The notes under the pieces were generated by a model. It ran no database searches. It saw only the letters and a list, made by a program, of their open reading frames with translations, and was not told the DNA's origin. A stretch of DNA of 64,000 nucleotides from Anaerolineales bacterium (GTDB taxonomy: Bacteria; Chloroflexota; Anaerolineae; Anaerolineales; UBA11579): assembly GCA_026129305.1 (NCBI GenBank), contig JAHCII010000007.1, forward strand, positions 1 through 64,000, read 5' to 3'. Shown here piece after piece: positions 19,093 through 21,037 of this stretch (positions are counted from its first letter, which is position 1; the number at the start of each line of letters is the position of its first letter). The translations under genes and the position numbers were made by a program.

Positions 19093-20865
19093 TTACTTGG
19101 CCGCCACCACCTTGATGTGCAGGTCTTTGAGCTGCTGCTCGTCGGCAGGTGTTGGCGCGTCGGCCATCACATCCCGGGCGGCCTGGTTCTTGGGGAAGGC
19201 AATCACCTCGCGGATGCTCTGCTCGTCGGCGAAGAGCATCACCAGGCGATCCAGACCGGAGGCGATGCCGCCGTGCGGCGGCGCGCCGTACTCGAAAGCG
19301 TCGAGCATGTGGCCGAAGCGCTCCTGGGCCACTTCGGGCGTCAGGCCGATCAGCTTGAAGATCCGCGACTGCAGCTCGCGCTCGTGGATACGGATGGAAC
19401 CACCGCAGACTTCGATATTGTTGAGCACCATGTCGTATTGCGCCCCGCGCATATTGGCCGGGTCGCTTTCGACCATGTGGATGTCTTCCGGCATCGGCGA
19501 CGTGAAGGGGTGTTGGCTGGCTTCCCAGCGGCCCTCCTCCTCATTCCAGAAGGCGAAGGGGAAATCGATCACCCAGCAGAAGGCCAGCAGGTCGGGGTCC
19601 AGCAGGTTGAGCTTTTCGGCCAGGTGCACGCGCAAGCGGCCCAGGGCGGTGAAGACTACCTCCGGCTTATCGGCCACGAAGAGCAGCAGGTCGCCGGGTT
19701 GGGCATCCAACCGGGCCTTGAGCTCAGCCAGCTTCTCCGCGGAGAGGAACTTGCTGAACGAGGAACGCTCTTCGCCTTCCGGCGTGATCGCCAGATAGGC
19801 CAGGCCTTTGGCGCCGAAGTCCTTAACATAATCCGTGAGGGCGTCGATCTCCTTGCGGCTGTAGCCGCCCAGGCCGCGGGCATTGATGGCGCGCACGTGC
19901 CCGCCGGAAGCCAGGGCGTCCTCGAAGACTTTGAAGGCAGAGCCGGCCGCCCAGCCGCTGAGGTCCTGCAGCTCCATGCCAAAGCGCATATCGGGGTTGT
20001 CTTTGCCAAAGCGCTGCATGGCCTCCTTGTAGCTGAGGCGCGGCCAGGGCGTGGTCAGCAAGCGCTTGTGCGGAAGCAGTTCCTGCGCCATGGCGGTGTA
20101 CATGGTTTCCATCAGGTTCATCACGTCATCGCGCTCAACGAAAGACATCTCAATGTCGAGCTGGGTGAACTCCGCCTGACGGTCGCCGCGCAGGTCTTCG
20201 TCACGGAAACAGCGGGCGATCTGGAAATAACGCTCAAACCCGGCAACCATCAGCAGCTGCTTGAGCTGCTGTGGGGACTGCGGCAAGGCATAGAACTCGC
20301 CAGGGTGCACGCGCGAAGGCACCAGGTAATCACGGGCGCCTTCCGGCGTGGTCTTGAACAGGATCGGCGTCTCAATTTCGAGAAAGCCTTCTTTGTCAAG
20401 ATAATCGCGGATGAACTTAATCACGCGGTGGCGCAGTTCCAGGTTGGCCTGCATGCGCGGGCGGCGCAGGTCCAGGTAGCGGTATTTGAGGCGCGTGTTC
20501 TCGTCGACCTCTTCTTCTTTATTGATCAAAAAGGGCGGGGTCTTGGACGGGTTGAGGATCTTGACCTGACTGACCGCCACTTCGATTTCGCCGGTGCTCA
20601 TCTCCGGGTTGGTCATGCCTTCCGGGCGGGGGCGCACCACGCCGGTAACCTGCAGCACCCATTCGCTGCGCACAGGCTCAAAAGCCGTGTGGGCTTCGGG
20701 CGCCGCCTCCGGGTCCGAGACGATCTGCACCAGGCCAAAGCGGTCGCGCAAGTCAATAAAGGTCAGACCGCCGTGGTCGCGGCGGCGGTGCACCCAGCCG
20801 GCCAGGGTCACGGTCTGGCCGGCGTTGGCGGCGGTCAACTCTCCGCAGGTGTGTGTCTTATACAT
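19093..20865 (-). CDS. aspS: Aspartyl-tRNA synthetase, probably non-discriminating
   Basis: 590 residues, the bacterial-type AspRS: N-terminal OB anticodon-binding domain (about 1-105), class II catalytic core with motif 2 region [20 protein letters not shown], the GAD insertion and motif 3 [12 protein letters not shown]. His31 in RRRDHGG is the residue found in non-discriminating AspRS (as I recall from Pseudomonas aeruginosa); discriminating enzymes such as E. coli have Leu. If so, it charges both tRNA-Asp and tRNA-Asn with aspartate, and GatCAB converts the latter to Asn-tRNA. AAGGAG precedes the ATG by 7 nt. An attenuator with an Asn-rich leader peptide lies upstream. Confidence 0.95.
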
Positions 20866-20893: not shown

Positions 20894-20983
20894 AAAACAA
20901 AACGCCCGGCGAGTGCCGGGCGAGAGGAGACTTGGTTGGGCTCAGTGCCCAAGCAAGGTCAATCCCGCCCGGAAAAGGGCGTT
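20894..20983 (-). promoter_or_regulatory. Transcription attenuator upstream of aspS
   Basis: On the minus strand four segments can be read. Segment 1 is CGCCC (20981-20977), inside the leader-peptide frame right after its last Asn codons. Segment 2 is CCGGGCGGG (20972-20964). Segment 3 is CGCCCGGC (20922-20915). Segment 4 is GCCGGGCG (20910-20903), followed by TTTTGTTTT. 1:2 and 3:4 can form together, giving the terminator. 2:3 (CCGGGCG with CGCCCGG) is the antiterminator. A ribosome stalled on the Asn codons would cover segment 1 and free segment 2. Confidence 0.82.
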
Positions 20984-21022
20984 ATTGTCCTCGTTATTGT
21001 TGTTCAGTAGGTTTGCATGCAT
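20942..21022 (-). CDS. Asn-rich leader peptide of the aspS attenuator
   Basis: A 26-codon frame, ATG at 21022 to TGA at 20944-20942. Asn occurs at positions 4, 7, 8, 9, 10, 13 and 14 (AAC or AAT), seven of 26 residues, with one Asp (12) and one Glu (11). The ATG coincides with the predicted transcription start, so translation is probably leaderless. It is too short for ordinary gene calling. The Asn cluster sits directly before hairpin segment 1, the arrangement of amino-acid biosynthetic attenuators such as trp and his. Confidence 0.8.
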   Translation of the reverse strand: MHANLLNNNNEDNNALFRAGLTLLGH

Positions 21023-21028
21023 TTCGGG

Positions 21029-21037
21029 ATTATAGCA
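21029..21037 (-). promoter_or_regulatory. Extended -10 promoter of the aspS leader
   Basis: TGCTATAAT on the minus strand: a perfect TATAAT (21034-21029) with the TG extension one base upstream. The start point 7 nt downstream of the hexamer falls at 21022, the A of the leader-peptide ATG. Confidence 0.75.

Follow-up and report, generated by a model that had tools for sequence, protein, structure and literature searches.

The window analysed here is a 64,000-nucleotide stretch of an Anaerolineales contig, and it encodes on its minus strand a bacterial-type aspartyl-tRNA synthetase (aspS, 20865-19093, with its ATG at 20865). The product matches the profiles NF001750 (846 bits) and TIGR00459 (752 bits), both above cut-off, and contains a GAD domain; a ribosome-binding site, AAGGAG, is located at 20876-20871. 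The next likely gene 3' of aspS in the list of open reading frames is on the opposite strand, which makes aspS probably a single-gene transcript. Upstream on the minus strand are an extended -10 element of the form TGC-TATAAT (TGCTATAAT, 21037-21029) and, after a gap of 6 nt, the ATG (21022) of a 26-codon open reading frame, MHANLLNNNNEDNNALFRAGLTLLGH (21022-20942, stop codon 20944-20942), in which seven codons specify Asn. Judged by the spacing from the -10 element, the transcript probably starts at or beside this ATG, and the leader peptide, which has counterparts in relatives, would then be read from a leaderless mRNA.

A first-pass annotation of this DNA had described the promoter element, the 26-codon frame with its seven Asn codons and, behind it, four RNA segments ending in a T-run, and all of these were located on the minus strand. 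Four of the Asn codons are consecutive (codons 7-10, 20993-21004) and would act as the control codons; codons 13-14 (20981-20986) are also Asn and lie where, from the geometry, a stalled ribosome would cover segment 1 and free segment 2. Segment 1 (CGCCC, 20981-20977, with CAAU at its flank) pairs with the GGGCG of segment 2 in the minimum-energy fold. Segment 2 (CCGGGCGGGA, 20972-20963) lies within the leader ORF and is the antiterminator strand, identified by duplex formation and covariation with segment 3 (TCTCGCCCGG, 20925-20916), which overlaps the 5' arm of the terminator; between the two is an additional hairpin (20957-20931) whose loop contains the stop codon. Segment 4, GCCGGGCG, is the 3' arm of an intrinsic terminator, CGCCCGGC-ACTC-GCCGGGCG, which is followed by the T-run TTTTGTTTT (20922-20894 in total); the hairpin itself (20922-20903) has a predicted energy of -17.4 kcal/mol. 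The same annotation had recommended folding the leader, and the folded RNA is much more stable than its shuffles (z -5.4).

The Asn-rich leader upstream of aspS is real and exceeds chance, as confirmed in 188 aspS upstream regions gathered from relatives, most of them represented by draft MAGs. Of these regions, 33 contain a short ORF in which five or more of ten codons are Asn; the reverse strands have no such ORF, and dinucleotide shuffling yields 0.25 per set. At a threshold of six or more the figures are 23, 0 and 0.05. No other residue shows comparable enrichment in these regions. In the window's own genome and in two sister species, four Asn codons in a row were found nowhere else in a short ORF that resembles a leader and follows a promoter, and there was no clear second Asn leader before gatB.

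In the window's own family (f1) the leader is present in all 17 genomes with a usable upstream region, in each case as a -10-like element followed by a short ORF that contains between two and seven Asn codons, and nearly always with a T-run terminator; examples of the peptides are MFQPIVVDNNNLDNNPQRAGGPCLAVR, MFQIGLPWFFLNENNNDNNNTLHRAGGCTLGWR and MSKAKTLEISFVVNNKDINPMRRERGLGLPAH. At all 15 loci sampled in family f11, aspS is preceded by leaders of the type ANNNNNDNDD; other families within the order supply more Asn leaders, and several sampled families have none. Across nearly all leader-bearing relatives an intrinsic terminator is present. Among the grouped leaders, 40 have the exact sequence TATAAT within 22 nt, and in 30 of these it lies 6-9 nt 5' of the ATG, from which a leaderless mRNA is probable. 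Comparison with relatives, which had been suggested as a check on the Asn cluster and on the pairing of segments 2 and 3, shows that both are retained, the latter with compensatory changes. A more distant Asn leader, MQSYANNNNDNNDA, is found immediately behind a tRNA-Lys gene, and such a gene lies directly 5' of the Asn leader ORF in locus L071 (406-478) and likewise in L070, L074 and L076; in those loci the leader and the tRNA may be on one shared transcript. On the other side of aspS, some 100-250 nt downstream, several relatives carry 6S RNA (ssrS; L039 4383-4558, L042 2335-2511, L056 4352-4527 and L034 3384-3564), and none was found within the window.

In most leaders segment 2 starts 2 to 15 nt past the final Asn codon, and its sequence complements the 5' arm of the terminator. 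The duplex of segments 2 and 3 has an energy of -20.8 kcal/mol in the window and antiterminator duplexes average -21.2 kcal/mol, against -17.8 for mismatched partners; tested against shuffled versions of segment 2, the duplex reaches p<=0.05 in 42 of 67 leaders. Its core, GGGC:GCCC, is almost fixed and the flanks vary jointly, giving pairs such as CGUU/AACG, CAUC/GAUG, GCUC/GAGC and GCGU/ACGC. At four flanking positions 107 of 136 cells are paired, compared to 69.1 +/- 5.0 (maximum 84) in 2000 whole-arm shuffles, a figure that both the choice of register by the duplex itself and the omission of 11 leaders of unclear register bias in favour of pairing. Adding the leaders of unclear register gives 125 of 172 cells against 85.8 +/- 5.4. 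In an alignment composed from the two strands with constant spacers between them, the covariation score is 0.353, against 0.158 when shuffled and at most 0.127 when slid, and changes on both sides occur in 36 cells against 14.5, with the proviso that leaders within one family are related and that whole-arm shuffles and slid controls offset these biases only partly. The antiterminator is thus mutually exclusive with the terminator, conserved and covarying across families.

Whole-leader folding at equilibrium, stalled versus free, was dropped as a test of the switch. With the terminator complete and a ribosome stalled in mid-cluster, 42 of 58 leaders keep the terminator. The trp leader of E. coli keeps its own as well, and its 2:3 pairing becomes visible only when the RNA is folded before the 3' arm is made. 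As most leaders and E. coli trp alike retain the terminator at equilibrium, the switch must be kinetic. Leaders were instead folded before the 3' arm of the terminator exists, and here segment 2 holds the terminator arm with P>=0.5 in 54 of 58 leaders for a mid-cluster stall and in 52 of 58 for a stall at the last Asn codon. The corresponding zero for a ribosome at the stop codon carries no evidential weight, since segment 2 is then covered by construction. The 1:2 pairing is present in the window's full-length fold, and the core of segment 2 is paired on its 5' side in 46 of 58 leaders. With no ribosome at all, 29 of 58 leaders, including that of the window, favour the antiterminator in the fold that precedes the 3' arm, and shielding of segment 2 by segment 1 therefore does not seem to be general.

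The reading that we favour, with a probability of roughly 0.88, is that the aspS leader is a ribosome-mediated transcription attenuator, probably leaderless, that senses Asn-tRNA and, to a smaller extent, Asp-tRNA. Attenuation had been the proposal of the first-pass annotation, and the codon enrichment, the terminator and the covarying antiterminator support it. Translation, stalling and regulation at the leader are steps that we infer from the arrangement of these elements, and they would proceed as follows. RNA polymerase would start at or beside the leader ATG and a ribosome would translate close behind it. When Asn-tRNA (and Asp-tRNA) is ample, the ribosome would pass the Asn/Asp cluster, reach the stop codon and cover segment 2, allowing the terminator to form and leaving aspS untranscribed. 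When Asn-tRNA is scarce, a ribosome stalled on the Asn codons would cover segment 1, segment 2 would pair with segment 3, i.e. with the 5' arm of the terminator, and aspS would be transcribed.

Asn had been named as the stalling residue and the conserved Asn cluster bears this out, but Asn does not act as the only enriched residue. In 52 leaders Asp is clearly the second residue of the Asn cluster, with 88 occurrences against 27 Ala, 10 Ser and 7 Thr, and outside the cluster Ala and Ser are commoner than Asp. Simple drift from Asn codons would not account for the Asp enrichment, because Ser and Thr are also one base from Asn and Ser would be equally expected. The ratio of Asp to Asn in the cluster is 42:92 in family f11, which carries asnS, and 19:83 in the leaders of asnS-less genomes. 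The leader is probably a mixed Asn/Asp sensor dominated by Asn. A stronger version makes the leader primarily a dual sensor for all that AspRS feeds, Asn-tRNA as well as Asp-tRNA, instead of an Asn sensor, and is evenly balanced in our judgement: apart from Asn itself, no residue but Asp is strongly enriched within the cluster, and Asp reaches its high share in the asnS-linked family, but Asn exceeds Asp by about 3:1 overall and by 7:1 in the window's leader, and not one of the 188 upstream regions has at least five Asp in ten codons.

Why an Asn signal should act on an aspartyl-tRNA synthetase is suggested by the genes for Asn-tRNA supply. In bacteria that lack AsnRS, a non-discriminating AspRS forms Asp-tRNA(Asn), which is then amidated by GatCAB (PMC4206432). 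The first-pass annotation had named possession of AsnRS as part of one refuting condition, and no asnS above cut-off was detected in any of the family's 24 genomes, single-contig ones included. In the genus, the genes found from the same synthetase class are a single bacterial AspRS and one LysRS-like gene, while gatB is above cut-off in G000 and in 22 of the 24 family genomes and gatC was identified by eye in L259. From the absence of asnS, the AspRS of this lineage would be non-discriminating, and an Asn shortage would be a sensible signal for aspS because AspRS must supply the Asp-tRNA(Asn) for GatCAB. Genes resembling asnB are common in the family, and the tRNA route therefore need not be the sole source of free Asn. 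Many members of the order (G001-G010 and relatives) have two full-length gatB copies per genome. The His at the anticodon site of AspRS, which we take to be the equivalent of P. aeruginosa H31, was considered as a marker of tRNA discrimination and rejected, as it is identical in genomes with and without asnS.

The leader is not confined to genomes of this kind. All sampled f11 genomes have asnS, which in G201 and G058 lies approximately 30 to 120 nt 3' of aspS, and in G033 (L290 734-10411) the Asn leader is followed in one direction by aspS, gatA, a gene for an unknown protein of 289 aa with no NCBIfam match, a kinase-like gene, gatB and asnS. Where asnS shares the gene cluster, one leader would control both synthetase genes. 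The leader is also present in families f4 and f9, in which asnS is found elsewhere in the genome. A strict link between the leader and the absence of asnS is refuted by leaders alongside asnS and by asnS-less families that lack an Asn leader. The presence of AsnRS, which the first-pass annotation had counted against its proposal if coupled with a leader that fails to respond to Asn-tRNA charging, would thus not refute attenuation; an Asn signal fits both contexts. AsnRS-like genes in G024, G035 and G048 score far below the asnS cut-off (218-258 bits) and perhaps encode archaeal-type AsnRS or AspRS; these genomes have a partial match or none to the window's aspS.

These distributions also bear on an unlikely alternative, that the leader arose to control an aspS-(gat)-asnS cluster and persists as a mere leftover where asnS has been lost, as in the window. 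The strongest leaders (NNNNNDNDD) do stand before aspS in a family that has asnS, adjacent or clustered where checked. However, every usable genome of the family in which asnS is undetected retains the leader (17/17), and its clear-register leaders keep both terminator and pairing despite differing sequence on the two antiterminator strands; a leftover would not keep pairing with changed strands. Direct sensing of a tRNA or metabolite by a T-box or other RNA, with the leader ORF incidental, is very improbable. Such control of the genes for tRNA-dependent amidation is reported for Clostridium acetobutylicum (Saad et al. 2012, 2013, cited in PMC4206432), but neither the window locus nor the sampled leaders gave any Rfam match at the gathering threshold, and it is the Asn codons that are conserved and not the surrounding RNA sequence. 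A last rival, in which a short constitutive transcript simply ends at an ordinary terminator and the Asn-rich ORF is there by chance, has the equilibrium folds in its favour and is scarcely credible given the Asn enrichment, conservation and covariation.

The attenuator reading of the aspS leader also gains general support from other leaders in the same genomes, where the codon matches the gene. Four genomes of the genus were scanned without bias for TGNTATAATN{5,9}ATG, and this returned short ORFs with Tyr codons, followed by a terminator, before tyrS (MQTDCRPVYYPQTR, MHAEFAPAYAYAPTC) and before one further gene. These tyrS leaders, with YY or YAY and probably leaderless, are found in the genus and the family (L278 1501-2852, which is G000:C17; L258, L270, L274 and L294-L322). 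That second leader, MAFQNGSHAYVYYYAESDLAVLSCPE, precedes a phenylalanine-4-monooxygenase-like gene in L284 (G000:C36) and L268; the protein matches NCBIfam models below their cut-offs and passes Pfam Biopterin_H. Phenylalanine-4-monooxygenase makes Tyr, and both the tyrS leader and the MAFQNGSHAYVYYYAESDLAVLSCPE leader are likely Tyr attenuators.

A broader interpretation, to which we give even odds, is that the aspS leaders form a class-wide Anaerolineae family, probably leaderless, that reads the Asn and Asp tRNAs dependent on one enzyme and thereby parallels the two-codon T-box with the ribosome as sensor. The family would have persisted whether AsnRS was lost or gained, would be tuned by its ratio of Asn to Asp codons and would belong to a wider set of leader-peptide attenuators that includes those of tyrS and phenylalanine hydroxylase. 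If the aspS leader acts as proposed, a synthetase would be controlled via the amino acid of another tRNA that its enzyme must serve, and the leader peptide would be a record of how the cell makes Asn-tRNA and a marker from which use of the indirect Asn pathway could be read. Leader-peptide attenuation would be extended to a phylum for which no report was found, suggesting that it is a general device there, and the natural series of genomes with and without asnS could reveal how the codons of a regulator follow a change of pathway.

The principle of attenuation is known; no description of its Asn/Asp specificity on aspS or of its wide occurrence in the Anaerolineae was found in the open literature. 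The first-pass annotation had known of no Asn attenuator on aspS, and a search of the open literature, with most subscription journals outside it, likewise returned no Asn-codon attenuator and no attenuator of any kind in the Anaerolineae. A system with the same logic is the T-box of C. acetobutylicum, through which uncharged tRNA-Asn reportedly raises expression of the ND-AspRS/GatCAB genes; a T-box RNA binds the tRNA directly, whereas the proposed sensor of the aspS leader is the translating ribosome. The enterobacterial trp, his and pheST/pheM attenuators share with the aspS leader a short ORF in which control codons abound, a layout where 1:2/3:4 and 2:3 pairings exclude one another and a T-run terminator, and in pheST/pheM the target is likewise a synthetase (PMC1262725). 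The aspS leader differs from them in its Asn (and Asp) control codons, the main codon not being that of the amino acid in the gene's name, in probably being leaderless and in having its antiterminator strand within the leader ORF. Outside the proteobacteria, classical attenuators act on synthetase genes in Streptomyces trpS and leuS (PMC1262725), where the codon matches the amino acid of the synthetase, in contrast to the mainly Asn leader of aspS in another phylum; that report describes no Asn-codon case. Leaderless leader peptides, with transcripts that begin at the ATG, are established for S. meliloti trpL (PMC7298713) and C. glutamicum ilvBNC (PMC11857589), and these serve Trp and branched-chain amino acid biosynthesis, respectively, in phyla other than that of the aspS leader.
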